The notes under the pieces: model-generated
What the model was told of the DNA's origin: nothing
The model's input: the letters and a program-made list of their open reading frames with translations, nothing else
Database searches by the model: none
Made by a program: the position numbers and the translations under genes
Source of the DNA: Oryzias latipes
Lineage: Eukaryota > Chordata > Actinopteri > Beloniformes > Adrianichthyidae
DNA length: 64,000 nucleotides
Reading direction: 5' to 3'
Assembly: GCF_002234675.1 (NCBI RefSeq)
Contig: NC_019863.2
Span: 364,109 to 428,108 of the forward strand
In this document: piece by piece, positions 8,126 to 55,045 of the stretch
How positions within the stretch are numbered: the first letter of the stretch is position 1
Layout: each line of letters opens with the position of its first letter

Positions 8126-11100
8126 GCCTGAGGAATGAGAACAGGAAGTTGTGTTTGTCTTCAACAATTGGTTGAATTTGATTACGCCTCTCCCTTTTAT
8201 TAGGATCTCTGCTATTATGTCTTTATTCTAATTGTAGTGTTTTGCAATATGTGTATTTTTATCAATAGATATTTTAAGTCTCAGCCGCTGGGATCATTCT
8301 GGCTCTTTGCATGTGATGCTTTTAATGTGTCCTTGAGACAGAAATAAAACTAAAGTAAACATTAAAGGCAACAATTAAACACAGAACCGCAGATGATTTG
8401 TGATGCTGTACTCATGAGTTCCTGTTGTTACATAAATGCAGATGTTTCTGATGTTTAGCATCAAAACCAAAAGGACTGTCAGTAGAAAAAATAAAATCAT
8501 TAAATGCTTAATGTCAAATGATATCTATGACAAAGTGATCTGAGTGCTGTGGATTTCAATGACCATAACCATTGACACAAAATAAATCTGCTTTCTTTTT
8601 TCATCAATGATTCATTTTTTGCAGAAATTATTACAGAACACACAGATTACCTTCATTGAGCTCCAGCTGTTTCTGACACGTATCACTTTTAATTTCAAGA
8701 ACTGTCAGGACACCGTTTCCCACAATGCATTGTTGTTTAGTCATCAAGACATGCTAGTTTTTTTGGTTAAATTAGACATTTTTCCAGTTTTCTTAAGCTA
8801 ATTTGGAGTTGAGTTACTATTTTAGCAATATGCTAGCTGTTTTGGGTAAATGATTCTTCTTCTTCCATTTTTGGACGGCCATAGCTCCTCAACCACAGAC
8901 TGCAGGGCCAAGAGGGATAACTCCCCAGGGTGTCTCATCCTGCTTAAGTCTGTTAAAACAACACTAATACCCAGAACCTCTTTAGCATCATGATCTGTTC
9001 ATGTTCATGTTCTGAGCAAACCTCACATGTTCTCCCATATTTCATGGGTCTGAAAGCACTGCTGTTATTTGTGAATCCCAGTACCTGTGGCTTGAAGGTT
9101 TTAGGCTCAGAACTGCAGGTTTTCTGGTTCTTTGTTCTTGTCTCAGCAGGCTCCAGTGGCATTGGCACAAAATGGCACATAGATGCTCAAAATGCAACAA
9201 AAAACAATTCTTTATGAGACATGAAGGTGGAAAAGAATTCTGTTTACAAAAAGGCAACTGTGTTCTAAACATATAATGGTTTGTTGAGGAGTGTCATTCA
9301 TTTAGAAATCATATTGTTTCTCTGAGCTAATGGTTTGTTTGCTGTAAATTCATTATAAATGACCCCAAATCTACCTAAAAGTAAGTTACAACATTTGTCC
9401 GGAAACACATTCAATCAACTGCAACGATTCCTTTTAATCAATCAAAGAGACACTGACAGAATCTCAACCAAAGCAGACCATTAAGAAACCATCAGTTAGT
9501 TTTTATTCAGTTTTTTTAATTATTCAGCAATTTAACGACCATCAGTTCAACATTTTTTTTTGTTGAATTTCCATAGCAATCCCCACAAATTGTTTTCTCC
9601 TTTTTGTGACTTTTTATTGTAAATGATGAAGATTTAAGTAAAATCTCAACTGTAGCTTTGGCTTTTATGTGATAAATATTTCTAAAATGGTAAAAACTGC
9701 CTTGTAAAAGTTAAAGTATAAAGAAAAATCAGTTTTGAATTGAACCTGCACACCAGCGTTCTGAACCCAGACTGAAAAGCACCTGAAATTCTGCTGGTTT
9801 ACTGTTTAATTAATCAGCATTTGAAAATCAAGGCTGTGGTCCTGCAGGTTGTGAGCACACAAACGTTTCCCTCTATTCTTTTGAGCGAACGTTTGCCTCC
9901 AAATTCAATGGGCACTTCCCAGAGCTTGTTATTAATGCCTGTTCTTTCCAATCCGAGCAGTCAGAACAAAAAGAAGTGGTGCTCGCCTCTGCCGGCCCCC
10001 TGACAGAGAGACTAAGCACATGCAGGTGCCCAGAGCTGGCTCTTTGAAGAAAATTACAGTGTGTGTGCCGTCAGCATGACAATTAGGGTCGGGTTATCTG
10101 CTCAAAATGAGGGGCTGCCTCATGAGATAGATGGCCTATCAGGTAGGGAAAAATGCTCGTTTGAAAGTAATTATATCCTCATAAGCAACAATTTGTTTTA
10201 GACCAGCGTGTAGAAGGTTTTACTGGTTTCCTGCAGAAGCATCAAGTAGCTCCCTGCAGGTCAGAGCTGGTTGCTCACCAAACCAGGTCATGTTCTGTCG
10301 TGTCTTCAGAGCACCAGCAGAGGGCGGTGTAACCATTTCTCTGAGCTGCAAGTTGCCCCCCCTGATTTATTGACCAAAGAAAGAGCTGAAAGAAATATCT
10401 CAAATGCAGATGTTTATTTGCAATGTTTCCCTCTTGTCTTTTCCTTGTTCTTTGTGTCTTGTGTTCTTTTTCTGTCAGTGCGACAGGCACCAAGTTTAGC
10501 CCACTAAAGAGCCGTATGTTAGAGCACCACTTCATCACGGCCTATGTAGTGTGGCCTGATTGGGCGGTTTTGGTTCTGAATTAGCAGGCACAAATTGCTT
10601 TGGGTGGGTTGACATAATCTGGGCGGGTTTGAGGTCGGTTTTGCGGTTTTAGTTCCTCATCCAAATGCTTTTCGACCAGCGAGGCGCGGTCAGGGGAGGC
10701 GCATGAGACAGTACCACATATGTCATCGTCCTTGCCATCATGAACCACTCATATTCAAAAAAACATGTGCCCACTAATCTGTTCCATAAATGCAATTTTC
10801 ATGTATCATTTAAATCCTAATTTCCCCTAAAATAGTGTAATTTGCATTTTTCTTGTTCAGTACAGCGCAGGCTGAGAGCTGAAGCAGCCTCACAATCCTG
10901 TAAGCTGGGTTGAATTTGGGCCTTTAGTTTACTTAACGTATTCTGATTATGGAACACTTCAATATCTTTTAATACATTGTTGACATGTTCTGTTACATGT
11001 CCTCACTTTTCTGTTAATACAGAAATTTAGTGCTGACATAAAGCTGAACCTGAAGCGAGGAAAACAGCGGGGCATTTTTGTCAGAAAGAAACAGTCGATC

Positions 11101-11239
11101 ATTTGCTCAGAAACACATGAACGTTTTTGATAAGATTTTTGTTGCTGGTGTTGCATAAAATTAGGAAAACACCAAATAGTTTCTGGAGAAAAACTGAAGT
11201 TATATTTGATTTAGTTTAGAATGTTTATCAATAAGGTAC
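8126..11239. other. Intergenic, no gene seen
   Basis: Between the minisatellite and the first TTAA-type element I see no exon or RNA gene. The part at 9830-10240 is GC-balanced and non-repetitive, unlike its AT-rich surroundings, and may be a conserved noncoding element. Confidence 0.5.
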
Positions 11240-11450
11240 TTAACCCTTGTGCTATCCTAGGCACTTTAACATTGGGAGTTGGGTCATCTAGACCCACTAG
11301 ACAGTGCTCTGAAGCTTTTTTCTTCAATGATTTGTGATCTTCACTGGTGTCCATGGATTACATGAAATCTTTCCACCTTTATCCACCTTTGTCATAGGGA
11401 GAACACGTCAATGGAAGGGGGGGGGGTCATCTAAGATGGCACAAGGGTTA
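11240..11450 (+). mobile_element. TTAA-type MITE, copy a
   Basis: About 211 bp, bounded by ttaacccttgtgctatccta and, inverted, gcacaagggtta. The interior shows the family core: gggtcatctagacccactag, then a Ser/Thr-codon-free stretch with tttttcttcaatgattt and ccacctttatccacctttgt. Four relatives occur in the window. TTAA at the ends suggests piggyBac-like target choice; the class is inferred. Confidence 0.8.
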
Positions 11451-12180
11451 TAAAAAATTAGATTCACAAGGACAGGTTTTTTCTAACTTCCAGCCGCTCT
11501 TTAATATATTACATCAGGACATTATATGTTTCACTTCACATAAATTCACGAAAAGGAAAAATGCAGAAAAAATTATCCAGTTTTGATTATAATAATAAAA
11601 TATTAAATTGCGGAAGAAAAGTCATTAAAAAATGTCTGAAAGTTTGACTTTAAATCAAAATAGGAAGAAACAAACAAAGGAGGAATAATTACAGCTAATT
11701 AATCCCTGATCAACTTTTTGGGCGTCTTTTTGTGAGACCTGGTGGTTTTTGGATGATTATCAGGCTGGAAAACCCAGACTCAATCTGGCAACACTGCTCT
11801 TTTCTCTTCTGGGCAAATCTAGAATCAACTACACAGAATAATGGTAAGGAGCAATTTAATTGTTAAGTAGTGATTTTTAAATCACTTAAGGGATCAAAGC
11901 ATTTGGACTTCCTGCCTCTTAAATGAATGCAGAAATACTAGTAAAGGTTTTCCCCTTTAAAAACAGACCACAAAGTCAATTAATCTTTCATCAGTCAGCA
12001 GTTGCTGACTGATTATCATTTCACCCTTTTTTACTAAACATACAGTTAAAGAGTTTTTCTGTCAAAACAACCCTCATTCATGTACTCTATGTATAGTTGA
12101 TTTCAAGGTCAAATGACGACTGAAGATGCCCAGACTGTAAGAGCAACCAAGCCAGCAAAGATGGAGTCTGTATTTTCATT

Positions 12181-12301: not shown

Positions 12302-12990
12302 TGTATTTTCATTTTTACTGGAAAATAAATGAACATTTAGGAAGTTCTATGTGCTTCTATAAGTAAAGTTAATACAATAGAAGACCAAGCACACTAACTT
12401 TTTTCAAACATTTTTCAAAACAACCAAAAATAGAGGAAATAATATGTGAGTTTTTATTAAGCTTTAGTCCTTCAACTTTATTAGAATTGAAGTTTAAATA
12501 CATTTTTTCCCCTAAATCATTGTGTATGCAACCTTGTTTTTTATATGGCATGTGTATGTGAACTGGTGCATGTTCTCACTTTGGTTGGACTGTGTGAACC
12601 CCATCATAAATGGACAAATCAACAGAGGCCATACGATCACACAGGATCTTTTCTTTTAAATGCATGCATTTATTATCTATTCATTACAGATTTTTATCTG
12701 TTTTTCGCAAAATACATAAAAATAATGCAAACAATCAGTAAAGCAAGTTCCCACATGCATTTCTGTGAAAATGCATCACAGATGAGTTCCTCAGAATATG
12801 TTGTTGAAGAAAACCTCCATACTGATGAAACCACAATGAATTCCTTAATTGTTCCAAACTGAAAGATACTTTTTTGGCAAAACATTCCAAACTTTTTCTT
12901 TTTTTAAGTGCTTCCTTTAAAATCTCAAAAGGATCTTTTAAATGAAAGTGTCAGACTTAAAGAGGTTGTTGTAATTAAGACATGTGGTCC

Positions 12991-14473
12991 TTAAGCTGCA
13001 GTTGAGACTTCTGTCTTGCTTGTTGACACTGAGGTCTCATCCTCCACCAAGCCTCCCATTCCAATGGCAGCCAGCATGCAGTTACGGAACTAGAAGAAGG
13101 TAGATCAAGTCAGACGCTACGCGCCAAGAAAACACACAAACAAACTGATATGACTGAATATCACACCAACCTGTTTGTTCAGCAGCACGTAGATAACAGC
13201 ATTGTACAATGCTGAGCTCTTAGCAAAGAAAGCAGGGATGGAGGCAGTCAGGGCAGTGAAGGAAGCTCCTTTATTCAGGAAAATCCAGCCAGCAAAGCTG
13301 GCGTACGGAACCCAAGCTACCAGGAAGCCAAAGACCATCAACAGGCACATACGTGTTACCTCCTTCTCAGCCTTCTGGGTAGAAGCTGAGTCCTGCTGCT
13401 GCGCTGCTGCCTGCACACATGGAGATTGGTAAAACAAAAGATAGATTTACTTAAAGCCATTTAATAGCTGATAGACTCAGCACCAAGGCTTCATTTCTTG
13501 CTAAATTCTTGGGGAAATAGCATAAAACTGAACTCACAGCTTTGACAGTCAACACCAGACTTCCATAAGTGAAGAAAATGAGGAAGACTGGGATGCAGAA
13601 GTGCACGCAGAACATATACATGACGTATGACTCATTGTTGAAGCCAGGAGCCAGAGTGTAGTAGTCGGGTCCACAGGAGCATTGCATGCCTTCAGGGATG
13701 TACCTGGAGGGGACATTTAAATGAAGAAAACTCTAGTTAATAAAATAAAAAAAAAACTATAGTAAATTTCTGAAAAACAACCATTTCGTCCATTTCCTTG
13801 ATTTTGAAACAAACGAGCGTTACCTGGACCAACCAAGCAGTGGAGGAGCAGCACAAGCCAGAGCCATTACCCAGGTGAAAAGGACTCCAGCTGCGGCGTG
13901 AGTTCCTGTGAATTTGAAGCTCCCCATGGGTTTGCAGACAACAATATATCTCTCAACAGCCAGGACAACCAGAGACCAGAGAGCAATTTGACCTGCAGGC
14001 GGAGAAAAGTCAATTAAAAGGCACCCAATGAAAGCAGTTTTAGACAGGAAGCATTCAGCATCTTCCACCTACCATTTGGTTGTTTTCTTACCTCCAAGTG
14101 TGGCCATAAATCCCTCAACGGCACAGAAGGTGGGTCCAAGAACAAAATAGCCATAAAAGCTTGAATTGAGGGTGATGGTGAAGCCAAAGGCGCACATGAT
14201 GAGTCCGGCCACCGCCAGGTTCACCAGGATGAAGTTGAGAGGTTGCTGAAGCTTCTTGTTGGTCGCTGTTACGTACAACGTCAAGCCGTTGATGGGAGTT
14301 CCAGTGCAGATCAGGAAGAACATGTAGAAAGCCAGAATCTTGTACATTATTGGGTCGACCATGTAGTACTGAGGGTATTCATAGGGGCTTCTGACAACCC
14401 CCGTCCGGTTGGACATTGGGATGTAGAAGTTCTTTCCCTCGGTTCCATTTTGCTCTCCTCCATCCCAGCCCAT
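12991..14473 (-). CDS. RH2-C: Green-type cone opsin RH2, third copy (RH2-C type, Q122)
   Basis: Five exons: 14473-14092, 13992-13824, 13703-13538, 13410-13171 and 13089-12991. Their lengths of 382, 169, 166, 240 and 99 nt give 351 residues. Internal exon lengths and phases are those of vertebrate visual opsins. In bovine numbering it keeps the N-glycosylation motifs NGT and NRT, counterion E113 (FCAVEGF), the C110-C187 pair, ERY at TM3 and retinal-binding K296 (AFFAKSS). Site 122 is Gln (GQIALW), which shifts absorption to shorter wavelength than Glu. TM7 reads NAVIY instead of NPVIY. The C tail lacks the rhodopsin palmitoylation Cys pair (IGMGG) and ends in a Ser/Thr-rich segment for kinase phosphorylation. 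The start at 14473 aligns with RH2-B; the N-terminus is three residues longer (WDGGEQ against WEP). Exons 4-5 and introns 3-4 are nearly identical to RH2-B. This is the last gene of the tandem set and converges on synpr. Confidence 0.96.
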
Positions 14474-14570
14474 GTCTGCTTGCTTGGTCTTCTGGAGCTT
14501 CAGCTGATGCAAACTTTCAGCAGTGTCAGAATCGACAAGCTCACAAAGGTAGTATTTGTTCACGTGGCAA

Positions 14571-17199: not shown

Positions 17200-17274
17200 A
17201 TGTAGAGACTTTCACGTATCCAGGCTGTCTGTTGAACTTACAAGGAAGAACACACTCCGATGTAAAAACGCCTG

Positions 17275-17994
17275 TTGGAAAGGCAAGGGCATCCTTCACC
17301 AGCCTCAAGAACATCTAGAGATCGTAGCTCATCACTACTCGCACCAAGATTCGCCTGTTCAACTCAAATGTCAAGTCTGTGCAACTGCACGGAACAGAAA
17401 CAAGGAGAACAACTAAAAGAGAACACTTACATTCATCAATTCTTGTCCGAGAAGAATCCTCAAGAACCACTGGCCTGAAATCATCAGCAATAAAGAACTG
17501 TAGAAAAGGACAAAACATGCGGCAGTGGATGAAGAGATCACAAGGCGGAGATGGGGTTGGCTAGGTCACACTCTGAGAAAACCAACATCTAGCATTACTT
17601 GCTAGGCCCTGAGATGGAATCCTGAGGAGAATAGTTGGAAAGGCAAGGGCATCCTTCACCAGCCTCAAGAACATCTAGAGATCGTAGCTCATCACTACTC
17701 GCACCAAGATTCGCCTGTTCAACTCAAATGTCAAGTCTGTGCAACTGCACGGAACAGAAACAAGGAGAACAACTAAAAGAGAACACTTACATTCATCAAT
17801 TCTTGTCCGAGAAGAATCCTCAAGAACCACTGGCCTGAAATCATCAGCAATAAAGAACTGTAGAAAAGGACAAAACATGCGGCAGTGGATGAAGAGATCA
17901 CAAGGCGGAGATGGGGTTGGCTAGGTCACACTCTGAGAAAACCAACATCTAGCATTACTTGCTAGGCCCTGAGATGGAATCCTGAGGAGAATAG
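17275..17994. repeat. Exact 360-bp tandem duplication
   Basis: Units 17275-17634 and 17635-17994 show no difference that I can find. Both begin ttggaaaggcaagggc and end gaggagaatag. It lies in LINE-derived sequence. Confidence 0.95.
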
Positions 17995-24100: not shown

Positions 24101-26940
24101 GTTGAGTATGCATAATATTCCTCAATTAGCCCATTATGAAAGGTTTATTATTGTCACAAATTAAAAAATTTTTTTTTAAAAAACTGCATAAAATAATAGT
24201 TTGAAATATTTCACAGAAGTAAATCAAAATCCCAAATTTAGACAAAATCTTAAGAAATGTTCACAGTTTGGGAACCAAAGATTTTGTCTTTCTGATTAAT
24301 CTGATGGCTCAATCTGATTCTGACACTTTTGATTTGAAAAAATAAAATGACAAAAAAAACAATTTCTTGTTTTAATGAAGACATTTGGATTGCCTAAGTC
24401 TGGATGAGGTAGAATCTAAACTTGCTTTCAGTGGGCACTTCTGATGGTGAGGTACACCCCAAAGTTGATGCTCAACCTGGTATTTTGTATTTATTTTGCT
24501 ATTTCAAATAAAATCATGTTTAAAAAACTGCCAGTATTTGAGGGAAAAGGTTGTAAAGCTAGGGTAAATGAAGAGTTTTTCTGTCGTTTTTGTTCAGTTT
24601 CATCTTGAAAAGTGGCTAAAATGTATATTTTGTGCCTGATTTTAAGGCTTAGGAGGGTAGGCTTCCAACCAGCTCAATACTTATTGGCAAGAATGGTTGC
24701 CATTGAAACGTTGACTCAGACCAACTCGGACCAATCACTGCTTACTTGTGATTTCTGGTTCCAACACATGCTTCTCCTGAGTGTACTTTCCCCTTATGCA
24801 GGGGGGTTTCTAAGAGTAAAAAGCCTTTGTTAGTGTCATATATGTTTGATAACTAGTGTCTTTGGTATTCAGACCTTATTTTGTGCTGATGAGCAGCATT
24901 CTCTGCTTCCTGTTTAACACCCTTGGTAATGTGTTGAAAGATTTCTTCATACAAAAACAAGAGCGTCTGATTTCTACATCCTGCCTCCCACATAAACTCC
25001 TAACTCCCACTTAGACAGTAAGCAGAGATGGAGACTGGAGTCACACTTAAGCCTCGCATTCTGGGATTTCTATTCCGACTCAAGACTTGACCTTAGCGAC
25101 CTGAGATTTGAGCTTTGGACCTTTAAGCAATGTTGATTTGTTTAATCCTTGTTCTTACCTCAGAATATTACAGTCAAATCTAACAAACAAGGCTTTTTTC
25201 AAATGTAAATGCTTGTTTAAACACATATTTGTTTTTCCCATCTAGTCTGTTACAATAGAAGTAAAAACAGCTTTCTAATCACTATCTATATCATAAAGTT
25301 CTATTTACTTCCTTTTACAGACTACATCTGAATATTTAAAATATTTTCTTTTACTTAATGAACAACAACATTCGGCAGTTATTCACCTTTTTTAAAAGTT
25401 GTGTACTTTTCTGAGGGATGCGAGAAAATGAACCATGAAGACCAAACATTTTAGTTTTTATAAAGATCCACGTGAAAAAGTCTCTGAAATTCGATTTGGT
25501 CAGGAAACATAAAAGGAATATTTGAATTAAAAAACTCCTATTTAACTTTTAGTTATTAACAGTTAGATACAATACTTTTATGTAGGTGCATTAGAAAGTC
25601 CTATTGCACGTGACAGACAAATGGAAACTGCGTCTGAGACTTAATGAGTGTTTCATTAATCTGTGTCGCTCTGATGCTGAGAGCACTTCCCCATTGGATA
25701 CATCAGATTAGCCTCTCTGTCCTTCTTCGCAGACTTTCTTTAAAACATCTAAAGTATTTTACTGCTCCTGGGTCACCGACAGGAGAGAGGAGATTATGGC
25801 AAACACATTGTACTAATGGGCTGTGGCTATTACAGTGACCATTTATTTAATCAGGTTAGGTATGAACAAGAGAGGTCGCACACCGTGAGCTCCTGACAGC
25901 CGTTCATGCTGCCAGCATCAGTACCACCTTCCTTTAAGATAAACTCTGGGGCTTTTATACTTTTACAAAAAGTCATTTCCAGACTTCCTAGGATGAATGT
26001 GGAATTGGGAATCTTCTCTGAGGAGAGAATGATTGTCATGCCTGGCATTTAAACCAACCGACTGACGTCAGCAGCTCAACACCCTGTTGCCTGGTGACCC
26101 AGATTTAAAGTCTGAAAATGCATGATAACTAACTCAGACAGTTAAAAACCATTGTTTTGTGTTACATCTAAATTGCTTAGATTGAGAAAGACCATCATTA
26201 GAGGTGTTAATCTTTAGTTTAGAGGTTGAAACACCCCCATTGTTCAATCTTTTGTTCATTAAATCCTGCTGATTTAATAAAAAGTAAAAACTAATTCAAT
26301 TTTTTGGAAAAATAATGAACACTTCAATATACTGGCTAGTTAGTTCATCTCCTGCTTTGTTTTTGGTGATGCTAAAAATATACAATAGAATAAAATTGAT
26401 TTCCCAAAATAAAACGTTTGAGTAAATAAAGCATAAATGTGTGTAACAGAATTAGAAAATGTTTTAAGATTGACTTACCAATGTCTTTTGTGGGCAAAAA
26501 TATGAGACGCACTTTTCTAATAATCTGTATGTGAAAGATGTAAAGCTTAAACAGTCAGTGATCCATCTTTGGATAAATGAGCCACAGCTACTTCTCCTTT
26601 TATGCATGCATTTATTGTCTACTCCACAAGACGTACAGTTTCAAATCCATAAAAATCCTGCATCAGGTAAACCGGCGAACCTTCAGCTCGTCTATCTGCT
26701 CATTCAGTCACACTGGCTCAAACACACATCAGATGCACTATTCAAGACACTCTCCAAAGCAGATTAACTCCAGCGTGTTTGGAAGTATGCCGATGGAATT
26801 CCTTAGCGAGTCCAACGTTGACAAATCCAAAACCAAAGCTTTGGCAAAGTTCATGACTTTTTTTCCCCTTCTTTTTTTTGGGTTTTTAACGTGCTTCTTT
26901 AAACCTGAAAGCAATCACTGAAAGTGTCCACAAAAGCGAC
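24101..26940. other. RH2-C to RH2-B spacer, no gene seen
   Basis: AT-rich noncoding DNA. The segment 25600-25860 is less AT-biased and non-repetitive and could be regulatory, but nothing more specific is visible. Confidence 0.4.
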
Positions 26941-26969
26941 GAGGTTGTTGTAATTAAGACATGTGGTCC

Positions 26970-28444
26970 TTAAGCTGCAGTTGAGACTTCTGTCTTGCTT
27001 GTTGACACTGAGGTCTCATCCTCCACCAAGCCTCCCATTCCAATGGCAGCCAGCATGCAGTTACGGAACTAGAAGAAGGTAGATCAAGTCAGACGCTACG
27101 CGCCAAGAAAACACACAAACAAACTGATATGACTGAATATCACACCAACCTGTTTGTTCAGCAGCACGTAGATAACAGCATTGTACAATGCTGAGCTCTT
27201 AGCAAAGAAAGCAGGGATGGAGGCAGTCAGGGCAGTGAAGGAAGCTCCTTTATTCAGGAAAATCCAGCCAGCAAAGCTGGCGTACGGAACCCAAGCTACC
27301 AGGAAGCCAAAGACCATCAACAGGCACATACGTGTTACCTCCTTCTCAGCCTTCTGGGTAGAAGCTGAGTCCTGCTGCTGCGCTGCTGCCTGCACACATG
27401 GAGATTGGTAAAACAAAAGATAGATTTACTTAAAGCCATTTAATAGCTGATAGACTCAGCGCCAAGGCTTCATTTCTTGCTAAATTCTTGGGGAAATAGC
27501 ATAAAACTGAACTCACAGCTTTGACAGTCAACACCAGACTTCCATAAGTGAAGAAAATGAGGAAGACTGGGACGAAGAAGTGCACAACAAACATATATAT
27601 GACGTATGACTCATTGTTGAAGCCAGGAGCCAGAGTGTAGTAGTCGGGTCCACAGGAGCATTGCATGCCTTCAGGGATGTACCTGGATGGTAGTCAAAGA
27701 AAATGGGCCATCTATGTGTGTTTTTCTGTTTTTGCGAAATGTTTCTTTTTCTACTTAAAGCAATGTGCTGGTGTTACCTGGACCAGCCGCAAAGTGGAGG
27801 AGCAGCACAAGCCAGAGCCATTACCCAGGTCAGAAGGACTCCAGCTCCGGCGTGAGTTCCTGAGAATTTGAAGCTCCCCATGGGTTTGCAGACAACAATA
27901 TATCTCTCAACAGCCAGGACAACCAGAGACCAGAGAGCAACTTCACCTGAGAGAGAAGTAAAAACAAAAAGGTAAAAGTTTTACAGAAAAATCTCCTTGA
28001 GATGTAGGTTTGAGTACCACCGTCTATTCTTCTTGTGGAGCGTTTTGCTTCCTCTGGTTTTTTTGTTTTACCTCCAAGTGTGGCCATAAATCCCTCAATG
28101 GCACAGAAGGTGGGTCCTAGAACAAAATAGCCATAGAAGCTTGATGTGATGGTGATGGTGAAGCCAAAGGCGCACATGATGAGTCCGGCCACCGCCAGGT
28201 TCACCAGGATGAAGTTGAGAGGTTGCTGAAGCTTCTTGTTGGTCGCTGTTACGTACAACGTCAAGCCGTTGATGGGAGTTCCAGTGCAGATCAGGAAGAA
28301 CATGTAGAAAGCCAGAATCTTGTACATTATTGGGTCGACCATGTAGTACTGAGGGTATTCAAAGGGGCTTCTGACAACCCCCGTCCGGTTGGACATTGGG
28401 ATGTAGAAGTTTTGTCCTTCAGTGCCATTAGGCTCCCAACCCAT
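26970..28444 (-). CDS. RH2-B: Green-type cone opsin RH2, middle copy (RH2-B type, E122)
   Basis: Five exons: 28444-28072, 27946-27778, 27682-27517, 27389-27150 and 27068-26970 (373, 169, 166, 240 and 99 nt), giving 348 residues. It keeps E113 (FCAIEGF), the C110-C187 pair, ERY and K296. Site 122 is Glu (GEVALW), as in long-wavelength RH2 pigments, so this copy should be the most green-shifted of the three. TM7 has NAVIY in place of NPVIY, as in RH2-C. An in-frame ATG at 28501 sits only about 30 bp from the TATA box, so probably at the transcript start. The start at 28444 ([10 protein letters not shown]) is preferred because it aligns with the paralogues. Introns are short: 125, 95, 127 and 81 bp. 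The 3' half is almost identical to RH2-C, while exon 2 and introns 1-2 differ. Confidence 0.96.
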
Positions 28445-28526
28445 TTTTGATGCTCCCTTGGACTCTCTTGAAGCGGAGGATCCGGGACAGTTTCGGAACA
28501 TGCAGCTCAGAGCTTAGCCTTGTGAT

Positions 28527-28599: not shown

Positions 28600-30978
28600 G
28601 GAAATTAAGAGGCCAGTAATTTATCTTAACACCTGATAATGCTGGGTAACTTGATCGACTTTTCAAGTCCGGATAAACTCCTGTAATCCTAACTGAATGA
28701 ATTTGATGTCAGCTTCCACAGATTAAGACACTTCCGACTGTAATGATTCCTGATGGAAAGTTTCAGTGTCCTGCATGTAACTTTTAATCTCAGGCATCTA
28801 ATAAATAATCAAGTGTAGATTTTTGGGGGGATCATAAGATCATTTCAATATAATCCACTTAATTTGATTCAAATCTGTGGGTATGATGTCTTTTTTTGAG
28901 AGGACTTTGGTATCCTGGTTAGGTTTAGCCAGTTATCATCCCATTCAAAGATTCAAGGATTTAAGGGTTTTAGGATTCTTTATCGTCATTTCACTACAGG
29001 GTAAAACAAAGTTTGGGTCCGGAGCCAGCCAGTTGCAGAGCATAAACAAAAATATATGAGAACACGGGAATAAAACGAAGCTAATGAATATTGGAAATCC
29101 ATTGTTCTTAACTAAAAACGAACAATTGTTGCTTTTCTACCTACAAGTTCATCTCATCTCCAAAAAATGATCCTGTTTACTAAGTGAAAGCTGCAAATCC
29201 TTAATCACTGAGTTTAATAAGGCGTGAAAATGTGTTTATGTGAACAAAACTTCAAAAGGATTGCTTTGTTGCATATCAAATAGCTAAAACATCTTTTGAT
29301 CGGAGTTCCCACCTTGAATAGAACTGTGTTTTTGGCATCTTCTGTAGAGTCTGGATGCACAGCAAACATTAAACTGACTAAAATTGCCACAAAACCTTTA
29401 AAATGGATTAAAAATGAGCATTTTCTTTATTCTAAGCGACTGAAAATTGTGTGATCTGTGGTTTACTCTTTTATTTCTTTTGCCTTGTACAAGATACTTG
29501 ATGTAATAGTGTCTTTTGTTCCTCATCTGCCATTGTTGAATCTCATTTCAGGACTGGTGATGGACCTCACAATAATCCACAAACTTCATTCTTGCTGTGA
29601 CCAGATGACAGAGAGAACATTTAATAATCGAGCATTTGCACCCTAGACGTCCATCTTCATTTAGAGGGGCTGTAATCGGCGGTATCCTGATGGGATTAAC
29701 CTCAATATCCTCTTGTCCTGCAGTGGCCTGACGTGTTGTAGCTACAGCTTACTGTCACAAGTCAAACTCACACGTAGCTTAGCAGCTGTGGCTTTAATCT
29801 GCATCTCCTCCGTCAGAGTTAAGACTGTTGATTATGAAGTGCTGCTAAGGCTGCTCATATTAAAACAGGGAAGGAGGGTACTGCAAATGTGTTCGCTTTT
29901 TTGGCTTTTGTACATTTATACATTTGTATAAAATATACATCTCTAAAAAATGAATTATTTTAGCATTTGTCTGTTTCTCCCTTTTAGGCTAAGAGACAAC
30001 TGATTTACAAATAAAAATTCTGTGTCTTTAAAGTTCCTGGGCAAGAATGTTTTTCACAAAACTACATTTCCTGATTTGATTAACCTAATATGAAACCAAA
30101 CTGATTAAATATATTTTGGGTAAAGCAGTGGCTGAGAAATCTTCCTGAAAGACTGAAGTTAAGGAGTCAAAACGGGATCTGAGATCATTTCAAGTTACTA
30201 GAAAATACAGTATACATTACTTCTGAAGGAATGAAAAATGTATTTAAAAGTAATCCCTGACTTGAAATTGTTTCTGTTGCATAATGGGAGATAACGTCTG
30301 TTCACTTTTGTGTTACTTTCCTTGTAAACATGAAGTAGAGCATCAAATCAACAGCATCAAGGTAACAGATGCACTGCAGAGCATTTGACAGCTAGAAAAG
30401 GGGCCATCTAAATTCATATTTACTTCTAATAATATAGTTTGTTTTTGGTAAACAACAGAATGAAGTATTCTACTTTGAAAAAAGCAGAATGCAGAGACCA
30501 CATGAGGAGCCTGAGGCGTGTGCCTTAAATGACTAACAAATGCTGCACGTTCTTGTCATGTATGGCTTTTTAAAATGAGGAGCTTCTAATAGTGTTGAGG
30601 AGCTGGGGTAAACAAAGTGAAGCTGAATGTGTAAATGCCTCCACGCCGTCAGTAGAGGGCGTCACGTTCCACGCATGAGGATCAGACTAACATCATTGCA
30701 GGCTTTGCACACAGAAAACACTGATGACGTACATATAAACAAGAAAGTCACACAGTTACATGTCAAATGATTTGGTTTAAAAAAAAAACTGCATTTCTGA
30801 CTCAATGACCCTGGTACCACAGTCATTTGATGCTTTTTCTTTCCAAAAACTGGGTGTCTTTTGCAACATTTCTGCCACAACCATCTGTAGCATTTCAACA
30901 GAAATCAATTTTACATTCATTGATTTAGTCAACAACTGTCTTTGTTCTTTTATTGAGCTGCGTATACGCTATTGTTGT
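28600..30978. other. RH2-B upstream region, no gene seen
   Basis: Noncoding. About 1.25 kb before the RH2-B start lie a TAATC at 29673-29677 and a GGGATTAA at 29692-29699, a pair of OTX/CRX-type motifs. No transposon ends were found. Confidence 0.4.
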
Positions 30979-31192
30979 TTAACCCTTGTGCTGTAGATGA
31001 CCCCCCCCCCCCTTACATTGATGTGTTCTCCCTACCATGACAAAGGTGGATAAAGGTGGAAAGATTTCATGTCATCCATGGACACCAGTGAAGATCACAA
31101 ATCACTGAAGAAAAAAGGTTCAGAGCACTGACTAGTGGGTCTAGATGACCCAACTCCCAAAGTTAGAGTGCCTAGGATAGCACAAGGGTTAA
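30979..31192 (-). mobile_element. TTAA-type MITE, copy b
   Basis: Reverse-oriented copy of 11240-11450, bounded by ttaacccttgtgct and agcacaagggttaa, with TTAA at both ends. It contains a C run (31001-31012) where the other copies vary. Confidence 0.85.
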
Positions 31193-31944
31193 ATGTATGT
31201 TTGAAATTAGAGGCTGCACGTCTTCCATGTGTTCTTGTTCCTGTTCAAACATTGACACCGTTGGCTGTCAGTGAATAAACTGAAAACAGTTTTAGTGGCA
31301 ACAAAAGAAAAACAGAGTTCATAACTTAAAGATTGGCTTTTAACACCAGAGAGAATGATAATTAGACAGCTTTTTTAGTGTTTTCTTTTATTGATGATTT
31401 TATTATCGTTTTACTGTGCTTCTTTGAATTTTACCTTTGGTTTTAGTGTATTTATACTTGAGCAGCACTTTGGATGTCTGGCAGATGTGAAAGTGCTATA
31501 TAAATAAAGATTTGATTGATTGATGGATAAAAATGTTTAGGTTAAAATCTAAGATGCTATACAGAACTTGTTAATTTGTAGATAATAGTAAATCTTAACG
31601 CTGGGAGAGAAACAAACTCTAACACAGAAATGTCTTTTACACCAGCCAATACACATTTTGTTAAGTTTTCCTATTTCACTGACACTAACCTTCAGTCACA
31701 TGAAGGTTCCTCTACACAATGAGATTTGAGTTCTAGTAGTGATAACAAATCCTATTTGCTAAAGAAGCTAAAAATTACAGTTATTTTGGATTTGAAATGG
31801 TCAAGTTGTTAAATAACTAAACATCTTTCCTGTCTCATCCTAAATCTAACCAGAAGTCTAGAAAATGTTATTCTGCTAGTAAAATGTCCTAAAATTTCTA
31901 GTAATAAGCTTAGAAAACAGAAATACGACAAATATGAGCATGAC

Positions 31945-39041: not shown

Positions 39042-39968
39042 ATGTATCTGTTCTCATTTACATTATGATGCTGTATTGCTGCCTATATTTTTCCTTCAAT
39101 CCATAAAAATAAATGATAACACAACAACAACACACATTTGTCATGTTTGAGGTCCTAATGCAGTGAAACACAAGGACTCATACTTGATGAAACCGAACCT
39201 AAACCTGTTTTTAAAGCTAGACTTCAGAGAGAAATGTGGAGGATTAGATGGAAGTCCAGTATAAAGTCCCAGTCAAATGAACCATGGCCTCAGGATGCAG
39301 ACAGCTAGCTCACTGTCTCTTTGGTAATGTATCTCATTACCTTGACCAGCCAACCAAAGGAGGGACTGCACAGGAGCTGGCCATTATCCAGGTGAACGCG
39401 CAGCCGGCTGCAGAGTGGGTTGCAGTGAATTTGAAACTTCCCATGGGTTTACAGACCACAATGTATCTCTCAATAGCTAAGACCACAAGAGACCACAGAG
39501 ACACTTGACCTGTTGATGAGATGCACAAGAGTCAGAGTATGAGCAGAAGCATTGGATTCTGCCATCAGCCACGATTTGCTCTTCAGCATTTTGCATCAGT
39601 TTACCTCCAAGTGTTGCCATGAATCCCTCTATTGTACAGCCCAGGGGTCCCAGAGAGAAATAGCCCACCATGCAAGAATAAATGCAAACCGTGAATCCAA
39701 AGCAGACCATGATCAGTCCAGCCACCGCCAAGTTCACCAGGATGAAGTTGAGAGGTTGGCGGAGCTTCTTGTTCTGAGCTGTGACCACGAGTGTTAGAGC
39801 GTTGATGGGGAAGCCGGTGAGGATCAGGAAAAACATGTAGATGCCCAATAACTTGAACTGCCATGGATCTGCCAAATAATACTGCGGATATTCATAAGGA
39901 CTCCTCACAAGCCCGGTCCTATTGTTCATGGGGATGTAGAAGTTCTTGCCCTCTGTGCCGTTCTCCAT
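36750..39968 (-). CDS. RH2-A: Green-type cone opsin RH2, first copy (RH2-A type, Q122 and S292)
   Basis: Five exons: 39968-39605, 39509-39341, 38570-38405, 37238-36999 and 36848-36750 (364, 169, 166, 240 and 99 nt), giving 345 residues. It keeps NGT and NRT glycosylation sites, E113 (GCTIEGF), the C110-C187 pair, ERY, K296 (SFFSKSS) and a canonical NPIIY in TM7. Site 122 is Gln (GQVSLW) and site 292 is Ser (IPSFFSK). Both are known short-wavelength-shifting states, so this copy should absorb bluest. It is clearly diverged from the RH2-B/RH2-C pair. Introns 2 (770 bp) and 3 (1166 bp) are much longer than in the other copies; intron 2 holds a long TATC microsatellite and a reversed LINE tail. 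It is the most upstream gene of the array. Confidence 0.96.
38701..38765 (-). repeat. Reversed LINE 3' tail fragment in RH2-A intron 2
   Basis: The stretch caattcagttcaattctgtt followed by tagccca...caacaacagttgtctcaatgg matches the reverse complement of the LINE end near 58080. It lies in the 770-bp intron 2 of RH2-A. Confidence 0.6.
38963..39039. repeat. (TATC)n microsatellite in RH2-A intron 2
   Basis: About 19 uninterrupted tetranucleotide units. Confidence 0.97.
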
Positions 39969-40063
39969 CTTTGCAAGTTAGGATCTGGATTAGCCAAGCA
40001 GAGTTACTGTTGAGCTCTGTCTATGCAGCTGTCCAGCTCCTTACATGTGATTCAGGAGCCATG

Positions 40064-43096: not shown

Positions 43097-43312
43097 CCTT
43101 GGGCTATCCTATGGGGTCAAAATGACCCCACCCTTGCATTGACGTGTTCTCCCTACCATGACAAAGGTGGATAAAGGTGGAAAGATTTCATGTAATCCAT
43201 GGACACCAGTGAAAACCACGAATCATTGAAGAAAAAAGGTTCAGAACACTGTCTAGTGGGTCTAGATGACCCAACTCCCAATATTAAAGGGCCTAGGATG
43301 ACAGAAGGGTAA
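43097..43312 (-). mobile_element. TTAA-type MITE, copy c (diverged ends)
   Basis: Same core as copies a, b and d (ccatgacaaaggtggataaa, ggtctagatgacccaactcc). The ends are degraded: cttgggctatcctatgggg on one side and gatgacagaagggta on the other. Its last part is included in the block copied to 46325. Confidence 0.7.
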
Positions 43313-43319
43313 AAGTGAC

Positions 43320-43663
43320 TGTTTTGAGTCTGGATTATTGGAACTCTCCCCTGGCAAGACGTAGCATCAAACTGGTGACAAGGATACGGCTTTTCTCTGG
43401 AAAATCGATGAGTTCATACCTGAAAGTGAGCCGTGGTTAGCCTATGTGGAACATGTCGAACATTTCGGCGAGGCTAATGTTAGCAATGACAAGCAAAGGC
43501 GATGCTGCTCAGCTCTGTGGGAGCGGCGACACACGGACTCCTGCAGAACCTTTTCAAAAAGAAACGCTTTTGAAGAAACTGTGGACATTTTGGGAGTTCC
43601 TTTTGCCCTTGGTGATAGCCGTTTGAACCAGTGCATTCAAAAACAGGGAGAGGCTGTCTAGCA
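43320..43663 (+). mobile_element. Decayed gypsy-type Gag fragment
   Basis: Frames read KIDEFIPESEPWLAYVEHVE, then HFGEANVSND and ETVDILGVPFALG. This matches the usual N-terminal Gag pattern of fish Ty3/gypsy elements, where WxxYVERxE(H/Y)FFxAN is typical. A frameshift near 43500 and a stop before 43663 mark it as dead. An identical copy lies at 46426-46769. Confidence 0.55.
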
Positions 43664-43921
43664 CTCATCACATCACTGATGCAGAAAGAGTTCAGCGTCT
43701 GGTGAGCTCGTTGTAATATTGAGCTAAATCAATAAAATGGAATTGAATTGAATCAGAGCTAGAACAACATCCAAAACTTACACATAGACATGTACAACAG
43801 GCGGTTTAGGTTCATTTTAACCTTGTTTTTCTGGTTTAGTTACATGGTAACAATTTTTACTTTGTTTTTTGTTTTTTTGACTTTCTTAAATTATCAACAT
43901 TTAGATAACATTTGTATAAAC

Positions 43922-44090
43922 CAGGGATGGGCAAACTTTTTGCCTCGTGGGCCACTAAGGGTTTCTGAATTTAAAAGAAGGGCTGGACCAGGAGCAGATG
44001 CACGGAGTGTTCTGGAAATCCCCCTTATAACTGAAAGAAATGACACGGAATCTGGACCAAAACATTTTGATTGAAAATTGATATATAATT
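43922..44090. mobile_element. hAT-type MITE fragment
   Basis: It begins cagggatgggcaaactt, close to the terminal repeat of the MITE at 17028. The right end and target duplication are not visible. Confidence 0.45.
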
Positions 44091-44359
44091 TAAAACAGAA
44101 CATTTTTGAGGTTTTATTTCAAAACTATGGTTTTTTATGGAGGTATTTGTGTAGCAATAATAATAATAATAATAAGTTTTATTTAGAATGCGCTTTACAT
44201 TTTAGATAAAATCCCAAAGCTCTACAATGGAGGCAGAAATAAAAATGATTTACAATAAGAACAAGGTAAGACAAAAATAAAACAACAATGAAAGTACTAA
44301 AAAGCATTATTAAAAAGAAAAGTTTTTTAGCATAATTAAAAATAAAATTCCAAAATGCT

Positions 44360-45313
44360 TTTCCATGTTCTTCCTCAAGACTGACACATTTATGTCCCTC
44401 TATGTGAGGGACCATCGCACAATTAACACATTAACTGACTGCCTTGCTGAAGACAGGCCGTGGATGTCAGCTAACTTTCTTGACCTAAATGAAAGCAAAA
44501 CTGAGGTTATTGTTTTTACCCCTGGTGGTAGAAAAGATCATGGTCTTGATCTCCTCTCTCTTCCCCCTTTTGAACAGTCTGTGGTCACAGTTCTGGGCGT
44601 GAAACTTGTTGCAGCTCTGAAGCTCGACCTCCAAAAAAACGTTGTAATCAGCTCCTGCTTTCTTCAGATGTGATGTCTGGCTGGGACTGAGTCTTTCACA
44701 TCAAAAACAAATGTTGACACTGTCGCCCATGCCTTCGTCAGACTAAATTATTGCAGTTCTTTGTATGCTGGGTTACCCAAAGCTTCAAAATACAGACTGC
44801 AGCTGGTCCAAAATGCAGCAGCCAGATTTATTTGTGAGGCAAAGAAGTTTGGCCCCAAAACACCGATCTTGGCCTCTTTGAACTGTCTGCAGATTTTTAT
44901 TCAAATTCTGGTCCTAACTTTTCAGTCCCTGGCAGGTACGACACCCCCTTACCTCTCCAGTCTGCTTTACAAACACTCCCCCCTAAAGTCCTTAAGTTCC
45001 AAGACCGGTTTGTGTTCATGGTTCCCAGAACTAAACGTAAGTTTCGGTGCGTTTATGTGTCGGCTCCTAAACTATGGAATCAGTTCCACCGGCGATTAGA
45101 GAGGTCACCGTTTTAAAAAAGAATTGTTTCTCCATTTCAGTGCTTTAGCATCAGCCTGGTCCTGTTATTATGCTATTTGAATCTCCCTTTTTATGGGTTT
45201 TATGCTTTTTATTGTTTTGTGTTTTATAATTGTACAATGTTGTGTTCTCCCTGTTTACAGCACTTTGGGCCTCTTTGGCTGTTGGTGGAAGGTACTTTAT
45301 AAATAAATAAATA
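44360..45313 (+). mobile_element. LINE (L2-like) reverse-transcriptase C-terminal part and 3' end
   Basis: Broken frames read MSANFLDLNESKTEVIVF, VTVLGVKL, YAGLPKASKYRLQLVQNAAA and TTPPYLSSLLYKHSP, the thumb and C-terminal region of L2-like fish LINEs. A 3' end with agcactttgggcc and an ATAA tail follows. Internal stops show that it is inactive. Confidence 0.8.
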
Positions 45314-45314
45314 A

Positions 45315-45382
<68 letters not shown>
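45314..45382. repeat. (ATG)n microsatellite
   Basis: About 23 trinucleotide units directly after the LINE tail, probably grown from it. Confidence 0.95.
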
Positions 45383-46238
45383 ACAGGTTTCAGGGAAATT
45401 TCTTTATTTGAATTTATTGTATTGTGTTAAATGTTTAAATGTTTCCACCGTCGGTTCAAAGCTTTATTTGAAATGATACAACGGTAAAGTGATTGTTAAG
45501 AAATGAAGCAGTGAAAATGACATTTTTGATTTAATTTGTCACATTCTTTCTGTCCACTTGTTCATTTTGATTGTCAATTTTGTTTTTTCACTAAAAACTG
45601 CTAAAAAGAGGGAAAATAAAGGCCCCACAGTATTATCTTAGAAGCTTGTGTATCATTAAATCCGACTTTATGTTTTTGAAGCAACAGTTGGCTCCAGAGT
45701 GGCTGAAAAAGAGAGAAAGTGAGGCAAATATGGATTAAAGGGAGGATATAAAGTGGGGAAAGGCACAACAAATCTATTAGCATTAGAGAAAAACATTCAA
45801 ATGAAATTGAAATTGACAATGAAATTGCTGCAGGTCTGACATTATGGCTGTCAGTTGTTTAAAAAAGGGCTGCATTTCTGTGCACAATTACACAAATCTA
45901 CACACTCAAGTGTTCACACAAACACAAAAAGCAAACGTCACCACTGTCTGCAAAAAGCTCACACATATAATATACTAATGAATGATTAATATTATTAATA
46001 TAGATACACACTGAGAACTGTACATGCTACATTTACAAATGATGCCAACACGTGTTTAACACCACACACAAATGCGCATATGAATATGTCCATGCATTAA
46101 AATAAAAAATGTTTGTGCAGAGATGACAATTACGAGTTTTTTTACAATCAACTTTGATTTTATGAAGTGATATTAATGCCAACGCATTGCAAATAAAAAC
46201 TTTCTAAGTAGCAAATAAAAATATTAAATATTTTCTTT

Positions 46239-46855
46239 CAAATTTTTATTTTTTTTACTTTCAAAAACTTTTTCTTTTTACTTTTTTCCCTGTAAAATTG
46301 TTTTTTGCATGAATTTTTTTTTTTCGAATCATTGAAGAAAAAAGGTTCAGAACACTGTCTAGTGGGTCTAGATGACCCAACTCCCAATATTAAAGGGCCT
46401 AGGATGACAGAAGGGTAAAAGTGACTGTTTTGAGTCTGGATTATTGGAACTCTCCCCTGGCAAGACGTAGCATCAAACTGGTGACAAGGATACGGCTTTT
46501 CTCTGGAAAATCGATGAGTTCATACCTGAAAGTGAGCCGTGGTTAGCCTATGTGGAACATGTCGAACATTTCGGCGAGGCTAATGTTAGCAATGACAAGC
46601 AAAGGCGATGCTGCTCAGCTCTGTGGGAGCGGCGACACACGGACTCCTGCAGAACCTTTTCAAAAAGAAACGCTTTTGAAGAAACTGTGGACATTTTGGG
46701 AGTTCCTTTTGCCCTTGGTGATAGCCGTTTGAACCAGTGCATTCAAAAACAGGGAGAGGCTGTCTAGCAAATTTTTATTTTTTTTACTTTCAAAAACTTT
46801 TTCTTTTTACTTTTTTCCCTGTAAAATTGTTTTTTGCATGAATTTTTTTTTTTCG
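46239..46855. repeat. 445-bp copied block between 88-bp direct repeats
   Basis: 46325-46769 is identical, as far as I can see, to 43219-43663 (offset 3106). It is flanked by an 88-bp direct repeat, 46239-46326 and 46768-46855, which is unrelated to the block. The block holds the end of a TTAA-type MITE plus a decayed Gag fragment. Confidence 0.9.
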
Positions 46856-49800
46856 TTTTGCTTTCGTTTGCAACACAAATGTTTTAGATGTATTGTGTGT
46901 CATCTCACTTTTTTACTATATTTGATTTTGCGGTCATAAGTTTCAGTTTAGCGTGACAAAGCTGCCATCAAACAGCTCCTGATTGGTCCAGATTCTAAAC
47001 AAACAGGTGTCTCTGTCTCGTATTGTGCTTGGAGACGGACACTGACTTTGGACTTTGCATCAGTTCAGTTCAACCGGGATTCTGCAGTCTTCAACCATCC
47101 TGGCCCGTTTCTCTCAGAGTAAAACCCAGAAGGAGCAGCAAAGCAGCTAAAATCAAACAGGTTTGAATTGATTTATGTCAGTGTAGCGACCAGCAGGTTT
47201 AAAATGTCTGCAGCAGAAAAAAACCTCTGAGCTCCGACTCCATCCAGCTGGAAGTTACATTTGATTACTATGAAGATTCTGAACTATTATTTTATTTTCA
47301 TCAATAAATGTTGAAATATGAGCAGAAAATAGCATTTTTTTCACGAGTAATTGTTTTTTTACTTTTGACAAAAACATAGGAGTTCTTAAAAATAAGACCC
47401 TGTGAAAATTAACATAAAGTTAAAAATGCTTCTTCTGCTAAATACATTTAGTCTACCTTAGGTTATTTTACTGATTACTGCTGTTAATCTATTCCAAAAT
47501 ACTGTTGTGCATCATAAGATAATATCAGCTTTAAATCTTCTTTTTCCAAACAGATCTTAAAGAAAATCAAACTTTCAACAATATTTTTCTCTGGAGGATT
47601 CACAGATTAAACACAGGGCTGTTGATTTAATGTCAGCAGATAAACGTTACAGTTTATTTTACTGTTTCAGGAGATCCTCAGTCATAAATTCACTAAATAA
47701 AAAATAACCAATGCAATAAATAAATAAAATTAAAAATCATATGTTATTTTTTAAATTGATTAAAATTGAATTTCTTTTTCAGCCACAGGGTCAATCGAGG
47801 GTAAAGAGCTGGTTCAGCTTCTGAGCCTCACAGACACCATGTCGTTTGCGTTGTGGTGGCATAAATATCACTTCATACGATCTATTGTGACAGAGTCCAC
47901 AGTGAGCTGCGTGGCTGCAGAGGTGGCCAGGGGCCGACCCAGGGTCCCCCATGACAGGGGCCCCGACTGCCAAGAAGCCAAACAGCACAGAACTAGGGAG
48001 AGCATGAGGCAGAAGCTGCAGACACCTAAGTTTGAAAGGTTTGTAAATAGGACTCCCTATCAGCTGCACAGAAATCGCTGCACACTCTCTGCAGTCTTCA
48101 ATAAAGCGTATCCTTCAGTCAGTCTGACTGTGAAAATATGAAACGGGATCTCTGAGAGCTTTAGCAGCACTTGTCTTTCAGGGCACCAGAGCAACTTTGA
48201 CTCCAAGCCTCCGGATGCCCCTGGAGACCCACGGGTGTTTAAAATCAACAGCTCTTCACCTAAGAGTGGACTAATACTGTTTAACATAAACAATTCACAA
48301 GACATTCACGATGAGGTAATAGGTTTCTGGCATGAGTAATTCAATCAGGACAGGATCCACTGTTGTCTCGCAGTCAAGTACACAATGTCGACTCAACTTA
48401 CCTCCACCAGATGCAAATCACAAGCCACCAATGATGAAGTAATTGGATCCTGTTAATTAAACCAGATCCCTTCCTAATTAAACTATAGTGATGGCTTTAG
48501 ACGTGTTTGCCAAACAGTTAAGTTACAGTTAACATCCAAGTCTCCTTGATATTCTTATTTTTGATGGGAGATTATATTCATCAAATGTTAAATGAAACCT
48601 TTACATGACAGAGTGAAGCTCAACACAGGTCTGTGAATTATCAAAGTTCAGTGTCTTTTATTGAAAAAAGTATCATTGACCTTTTACTCCCCATTTATTC
48701 AACCCTTCTGCGGAAATGTATCTGCCTTCAATGGATGCAAATCTTCAGGGTTTATGATTTGCTGCAAGCTCTAATCTGAATCACATTATCTGGAGTTTTT
48801 TTAACAAAACTGTTCCAACTTTGTCATATTTCATTTGTACGTCTTTTTAATGTTCCCGTGGCTTCTAATCAATATTTTTGATATTCTGTCTTATTTAGTT
48901 CATGATATTGCTCCCCAAACCAGAACTATAGTATCAGGCCCCCCTGGAGGCTGATTCAGTACTACAAATCAGAATGGAGCATCCATCCCATGTCTGAGCC
49001 TGTACTTATGGGGAGCCTGAAGGCGGCATACTCCCTGGACCGGTCGCCCGTCTGTCACAGGCCATGGAACATGTTATGCTTTTAACTACACAAAAATCAA
49101 GAGTTTCTGAATTACAGAAATAAAAAATGATGACAATTGTAGAATGAGCTGAAACAGCAGCAACGGTGGAGCGGGACGTTTGGGCACCCTTGATTCATAG
49201 GGATTCTAACACCTATTCAAATAACCAGATTAGTGGCGGGGTGAAGAAAGTTTGGGAGCACCTGAGGTAATCCCTTTACAGGTAGGGCCTGCCTGTGATG
49301 ATGAATGCAAGCTTACACCATTAGAGACCCAAAATCCTATTAACTCTCTACATTTTCAGAAAATGACCTAATAAAGGAACCCAAAGGCAGTGATTTCCTT
49401 AAAGTCAATGTGTTTCTGTCTTGACCATCCATTACAAAGGAAAGCATCTGAGTAGTTCCACTGCCAACAAGAACTTCAAGTCTTTTTCCTCAAGTCTGTT
49501 CATTGGAGGATTAGTTTGCAATCATTTTAAGAAATCATTACAATACACTGTGATGCAAAAATAAACATGTCTTTTTATGCACTATGCATCACATATTTCA
49601 AAGAAATGAGCTGTTGAGTGGAAGTTATGTAGCACTAAAACATGTTTCTGCAGTTACAGAATGAAAAGAAAGTTCTGTCTGGATTACAGGGCTGCATGAT
49701 CATTAGGCAGAATAATCTTGAACATTTGCTATGCTTGTCTTGTTAAAATGCCAAAAAAAAGTCTTGACAGTTTTTGATTTATTTGTTGAATCTCTTTTGA

Positions 49801-54300: not shown

Positions 54301-54823
54301 ACTAAAAGTATTTATTTGTAGTTGGTAGAAATGAGGAAAAATACTTCTTTGTAACAAAAGCTGTTCTTTACATGAAGGATGCAGACGTGTCCTCAGATGG
54401 ACTCCAGATGGCGCTAAAGTACCTGCTTTTTGCACAGCTTGCTCAGTTTTTAATTTTTATTTTTGCAGCACATCTTTGGATTGAAGACGTTTTGCAAACA
54501 TGAATAAAAAGCAAAGAGATCATTACTTTGCACCTTAAACTGGACACACATGTTTTGATATTTTAAATCAATTTAACTTAGTCTCAATATTTCATTATTT
54601 GTAACCACTCCATTTATTCACATTTATTTGAACTTTTTTTGCATTTATATAATACAGCCATGTTTCTCTGTTGTCATTTCTATGAAGAATATGTTCTGAA
54701 ATTTTTTTTTTTATCTTGAAGTTTTTTTAAATGATTGGCTTTGATGTGATGTGAAAAATGTGGCATTTTAGCCTCTTAAGAGCCAAACTAATATTTGAGA
54801 TAACCCTCTACATGTAGTCAAAC
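51349..54823. other. Spacer with one orphan exon
   Basis: Apart from the exon at 53344-53480, a reversed LINE-type tail lies near 52955-53010 (tttctaaagcacctttcatg). No other gene is recognised. Confidence 0.4.
53344..53480 (-). CDS. Orphan terminal coding exon, unrecognised
   Basis: On the - strand an acceptor (tttatttag) at 53481 is followed by 137 nt open to a TGA at 53346-53344. A leading AT presumably completes an Asp codon. The 44 residues read as coherent protein (AEEARVALREAVIPGRL, then SLQKAKSDVTLIRAMKVVEQQL split over the end) with mixed charged and aliphatic residues. A polyadenylation signal AATAAA follows at 53206-53201. No convincing upstream exon was found in the next 3 kb. 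I do not recognise the family. It could be the 3' exon of an unseen gene, a relic left by a rearrangement, or chance. Confidence 0.35.
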
Positions 54824-55045
54824 TTAACCCGTGTGCTATCCTAGGCTCTTTAACATTAGGAGTTGGGTCATCTAGACCCACTAGACAGTGCTCTGAACCT
54901 TTTTTCTTCAATGATTTGTGTTCTTCACTGGTGTCCATGGATTACATGAAATCTTTCCACCTTTATCCACCTTTGTCATGGTAGGGAGAACACGTCAATG
55001 GAAGGATCGGGTCATCTGGACCCCATAGGATAGCACAACGGTTAA
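54824..55045 (+). mobile_element. TTAA-type MITE, copy d (best preserved ends)
   Basis: Bounded by ttaacccgtgtgctatccta and, inverted, aggatagcacaacggttaa, with TTAA on both sides. The core is the same as in copies a-c. Confidence 0.88.

Follow-up and report, generated by a model that had tools for sequence, protein, structure and literature searches.

A 445-bp local copy between 88-bp direct repeats in an opsin-bearing region of Oryzias latipes

Introduction

Repair-mediated duplications of vertebrates, as set out in the portions of Pace 2009 drawn on here (PMC2671141), carry inserts of 50-619 bp with 2-9 nt of microhomology, and their donors lie less than 5 kb away in 824 of 1,136 human cases and in 80 zebrafish cases. 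Among the 39 proximal cases examined in that work, 31 showed microhomology, 6 had a flanking duplication (4-21 nt) and none had a poly(A/T) tail, and the authors attribute the class to SDSA at double-strand breaks. The pipeline behind the survey relied on interrupted TE coordinates that meet within 30 bp, and inserts that were part of a repeat were excluded (PMC2671141).

Related structures have been described in somatic human cancers, where cycles of templated insertion re-replicate a host segment (Li et al. 2020, PMC7025897) and cis reciprocal duplications place a segment E of 50 bp-1 kb between two copies of a segment B, an arrangement provisionally assigned to MMBIR (Setton et al. 2023, PMC10482687). 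According to the excerpts of these two papers used here, the templates of such ABEBC or rDup events are typically far away or on other chromosomes, and the reported size range of B in the cis cases is 1-300 kb. Templated sequence insertion polymorphisms (TSIPs) are also copied from donors that are kept; in the parts of the source consulted (PMC5110952) their donors are distant, class 1 is LINE-mediated with poly(A) and a TTTT/A site, and class 2 has microhomology and is described without a flanking duplication. Here we describe a locus in a 64,000-nucleotide stretch of the Oryzias latipes genome, the whole of which is called the window throughout, and compare it with these classes.

Results

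A perfect copy between perfect flanks

The window contains two full-length copies of a 445-bp block (E) in direct orientation, the donor being kept and its copy lying between two copies of an 88-bp repeat (B) (Table 1). The initial annotation had described the block as reappearing unchanged, the copy as bracketed by an 88-bp duplication and the joins as retaining 2-bp overlaps (cg and ca), and the identities and junction positions in Table 1 bear out all of these statements. The maximal exact repeats are 445 and 88 bp long, with the adjoining base mismatched on all four outer sides; one alignment extended the B pair to 93 by adding five bases on the left, three of which match. With the two overlaps subtracted, the parts account exactly for the span from 46239 to 46855 (88 + 445 + 88 - 2 - 2 = 617). 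B is rich in pyrimidines (65 of 88 bases) and its 3' end reads T11-CG; the T11 run beside the join belongs to B in both copies.

Table 1 Coordinates of the duplicated block, its flanking repeats and the junctions, in window positions.
Feature	Position	Strand	Evidence or remark
Donor block E, 445 bp	43219..43663	+	Exact copy at 46325-46769; MITE alignment with three other copies
Make-up of block E: 5' part, half of a presumably piggyBac-like MITE; remainder, unclassified relic sequence	43219..43663		
MITE whose middle is the start of the donor block	43099..43313	+	Extent from BLAST match to 54824-55038
Acceptor copy of E, direct orientation	46325..46769	+	445/445 identical; 3106 bp start-to-start from donor
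88-bp flanking repeat B, left copy	46239..46326	+	Exact match to 46768-46855
88-bp flanking repeat B, right copy	46768..46855	+	88/88 identical
Junction 1, B-to-E join, overlap cg (2 bp)	46325..46326	+	
Junction 2, E-to-B join, overlap ca (2 bp)	46768..46769	+	

Chance, age and other repeats

When the local 6.5 kb was shuffled 100 times under an order-3 Markov model, exact direct repeats reached 18 bp at most, and since this length was never exceeded the block and flank repeats are not attributable to chance. The 2-bp overlaps are of a different order: the probability of an overlap of at least 2 bp at a random junction in the region is 0.18, and at two independent junctions 0.033. Given that value, we rejected 2-bp microhomology as proof of mechanism; the overlaps are weak evidence for one, and they do not discriminate between routes. 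Across the 533 aligned bases of block and flank there are zero differences, which bounds pairwise divergence below about 0.56% (rule of three) and means that the duplication event or events were recent.

The whole window was also scanned for inserts between repeats, taking exact matches of 20 bp or longer whose two copies lie no more than 5 kb apart and are separated by at least 30 bp, with no more than five later copies per seed. The scan returned 99 pairs, 94 of which start at 7300-8200 in a 26-bp minisatellite; of the rest, three lie in a CA-rich tract at 32 kb and two are the E and B pairs of the present event. The minisatellite (7362-8117) is G-rich, has 29 copies and leaves all three minus-strand frames open. 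Elsewhere, 17274-17994 is a perfect tandem duplication (361/361 bp identical, period 360, 1-bp overlap at the join) within what we take to be a LINE-like relic, which makes it the second recent duplication of perfect identity in the window. Around the acceptor site lies a 38-bp inverted pair (46156-46193 and 47845-47882) that is 82% complementary, the pattern of its 20-bp core having two matches against none in 100 shuffles.

Ends of the block

The start of the donor block falls in the middle of a MITE that is present four times in the window (11238-11461, 30969-31202, 43099-43324 and 54822-55038; 89-96% alike in BLAST pieces) and that we assume, from its TTAA sites and CCCTTGTGC ends, to be of a piggyBac-like family. 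All three of the other copies run uninterrupted through the position equivalent to 43219. This agrees with the earlier statement that the block starts inside a MITE, and this continuity shows that no element ends at 43219 and that the donor is 43219-43663. At the other end, where a Gag relic had been proposed, Pfam returned no family for any of four pieces (4/4), a weak negative given that the pieces overlap and are only 27-97 residues long; the peptide there nevertheless looks Gypsy-Gag-like to us, an impression that we treat as an assumption.

A search for TIRs or other inverted repeats at the block ends and for poly(A) found none, and together with the arbitrary start within a MITE this accords with the description of a block that has no transposon ends of its own. 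A flank of 88 bp exceeds the duplications that transposases make. Insertion of a DNA transposon or MITE was rejected on the length of this flank and on the mid-MITE position of 43219 in 3/3 other copies, and a mobile element more generally was rejected on the block ends and on the count of two full-length copies within the window. A scan of IMG/VR with a 24-base stretch of the block gave 0 matches.

Position beside opsin-like exons

Three opsin-like first exons were found in the window. Minus-strand frames 39480-39977 and 14072-14500 match Rhodopsin_N (E 1.8e-25 and 6.3e-26, respectively), and a third opsin-like exon, in the minus-strand frame 27830-28513, has a 211-bp exact stretch in common with the exon at 14072-14500. 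We take the window to be a teleost RH2 green-opsin array and use the labels RH2A and RH2B on that assumption. The insert lies approximately 6.3 kb, and the donor approximately 3.2 kb, upstream of the RH2B-like first exon, which is on the minus strand.

Two RH2A-like opsin copies (12892-14455 and 26871-28435) stand approximately 13.98 kb apart. BLAST aligns them in two pieces, 86.7 and 95.5% alike, yet they also match exactly over 520 bp (12962/26941) and 211 bp (14171/28151), which looks like gene conversion. To the left are exons that are presumably synaptoporin-like, with MARVEL matches at E 1.9e-4 and 1e-3 that both fall below the curated cut-off. The segment 44314-45382, which we take from its peptide to be the 3' end of a broken non-LTR (LINE-like) retrotransposon, is followed by 22.7 copies of ATG; it has no Pfam match above the cut-off and one at E 0.19.

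Comparison with described classes

The locus resembles the proximal repair-mediated duplications in several respects: the donor is retained within 5 kb (3106 bp apart), the 445-bp insert falls inside the published 50-619 bp, the joins have the 2-bp microhomologies cg and ca without filler, and there is no poly(A/T) tail. It differs in its flank, which is 88 bp here against 4-21 nt there, the latter being an observed range and not a defining property, and perhaps in its acceptor, the survey having dealt with insertions into annotated TEs. A MITE with three further copies in the window makes up part of the block, and the single-copy rule of the Pace screen would fail for that part. Because of its 30-bp limit and its exclusion of repeat inserts, that screen would miss the present case, and the rarity of such events therefore cannot be judged from it.

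Patch-mediated tandem duplications at adjacent nicks, reportedly the subject of work by Vaughn and Bennetzen in 2014 and Schiml in 2016, offer a second comparison. The sources drawn on in part here (PMC7971508, PMC5730883, PMC8355091) describe short, perfect local duplications under about 125 bp, which B resembles, but these are plain, whereas the present locus has a 445-bp insert. With the ABEBC and rDup structures (PMC7025897, PMC10482687) the locus shares its layout as those excerpts give it, that is, a short E between two B copies, a kept donor and two junctions with little homology, but the published cases are somatic, with mostly remote templates, and 88 bp falls outside the B sizes reported for the cis cases. 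Its copied insert, kept donor and microhomology recall class 2 TSIPs, from which it differs, on the text available from that source (PMC5110952), in having a flanking duplication and a nearby donor; unlike class 1 TSIPs, it has no tail, and its target is one base off.

Discussion

A donor that is kept and proximal, arbitrary ends and the absence of TIRs and poly(A) support reading the locus as the scar of repair-type copy-and-paste, in which the insert was templated, as opposed to a transposon. The initial annotation had proposed repair of a staggered double-strand break with filled-in overhangs and a template-derived insert. The repair-type templated insert stands, given the retained, proximal donor and the arbitrary ends, but a staggered break with fill-in is not required because other routes give the same letters: template switch, staggered break, and tandem duplication followed by deletion all yield an identical sequence. 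We lean towards a single, recent, germline local duplication by repair or replication, either a repair-mediated duplication or a cis cycle of templated insertion, as the likelier origin.

The template switch may be pictured as follows. Whether at a collapsed fork or at a break that is copying the sister by SDSA, an extending 3' end would reach the T11-CG at 46326 and quit its template, prime on the CG at 43219 on the same strand 3.1 kb upstream, copy 445 nt and exit at CA; re-landing on the CA at 46239 would cause 46239-46326 (88 bp) to be synthesized twice before normal synthesis resumed. We infer one event, in the germline, from a DNA and not an RNA template, with the second 88-bp copy made by re-synthesis and not by overhang fill-in. 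Template switch is preferred because it takes one event, because it explains the cis position, the direct orientation and the short distance, and because its form matches both the vertebrate germline and the ABEBC classes. Counting against it are the length of B, which at 88 bp is far shorter than in the cancer cis cases (1-300 kb) and longer than the flanking duplications of the vertebrate cases (4-21 nt), the two-step route, which produces an identical sequence, and the 2-bp overlaps, which are frequent by chance. When the four breakpoint stretches were folded as DNA, no fold-back stood out against shuffles (z-scores 0.07, 0.77, -0.45 and 0.67), and hairpin-driven stalling was rejected because none of these folds was clearly better than the shuffled ones.

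A staggered break, in which opposite-strand nicks 88 nt apart leave overhangs that are filled in and a 445-bp nearby copy is joined between the ends, we consider unlikely. Its components have precedents in the excerpts used here: fill-in of complementary overhangs yields tandem duplications in mouse ES cells, where 46-nt overhangs were tested (PMC5730883), 3' overhangs can be filled in through CST and Pol alpha-primase (PMC8355091), and in rice the tandem-duplication share of insertions above 50 bp starts at 70% and drops only beyond 125 bp, a range into which 88 bp fits (PMC7971508). However, this route needs a long stagger plus a separate templated insert, for which the sequence gives no reason over template switch, and joining the filled-in ends to each other would be expected to leave a plain tandem duplication without an insert. 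With 3' overhangs, 11 of the last 15 bases at the right (bottom-strand) tip would be purines (hand count), making this tip less suitable for primase than the T-rich left one.

The same letters could also have come from two steps, which we regard as distinctly unlikely: 43221-46326 (3106 bp, junction cg) would first have been duplicated in tandem, and 2577 bp (43664-46240, junction ca) would then have been deleted from the second copy, so that the apparent 88-bp target duplication would be no such thing but the remainder of the second tandem copy. A simulation of these steps from the inferred empty site equals the window letter for letter, and the cis position and direct orientation of donor and copy need no extra assumption; against this, both events would have to fall on one allele within the span of zero substitutions in 533 aligned bases.

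An assembly artefact is more doubtful again. Contig ends with an 88-bp overlap in a T-rich stretch could have been left unmerged and the gap filled with reads from approximately 3 kb off, a usual separation for mate pairs; 88 bp is also near common k-mer sizes, the flank is of low complexity, both duplicates are perfectly identical, and the window holds the further perfect 361-bp tandem duplication at 17274-17994. Short-read assemblies, however, tend to break on long simple repeats, and the window contains no N and passes through (TA)68, (TATC)19 and 26 consecutive C; a misfilled gap that ends in two clean overlap joins also seems improbable. That a LINE reverse-transcribed a block transcript by target priming and left 88 bp of target-site duplication is barely credible: a flanking duplication is present, the left edge of B falls within TTT/CAAA on the top strand, which departs by a single base from the TT/AAAA geometry of LINE-1 type targets, and the presumed LINE-like 3' end at 44314-45382 is nearby, but the insert ends without poly(A) beyond B's own and, by eye, without AATAAA near its 3' end. 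This RNA route was rejected on the missing tail and on the donor, which is just 3.1 kb off, in line with the tailless proximal cases in the excerpted part of Pace 2009 (PMC2671141).

The sequence feature itself is most likely real, and it most likely belongs to an established kind of scar left by local repair or replication; the sole unusual feature of the event is the length of its 88-bp flank. That it is instead the hallmark 'long-flank' insert of a fish germline route, in which long staggered breaks (tens to 100 nt) are filled in and a nearby template is captured, strikes us as improbable. A single locus leaves existing knowledge unchanged, but it exposes an ascertainment gap, in that screens capping flank overlap at 30 bp are blind to such events. 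As a vertebrate case of local copy-and-paste it is clean and recent, with a flank of 88 bp copied anew, and it lies upstream of a colour-vision gene array, in a region where regulatory elements could be shifted by short local duplications.
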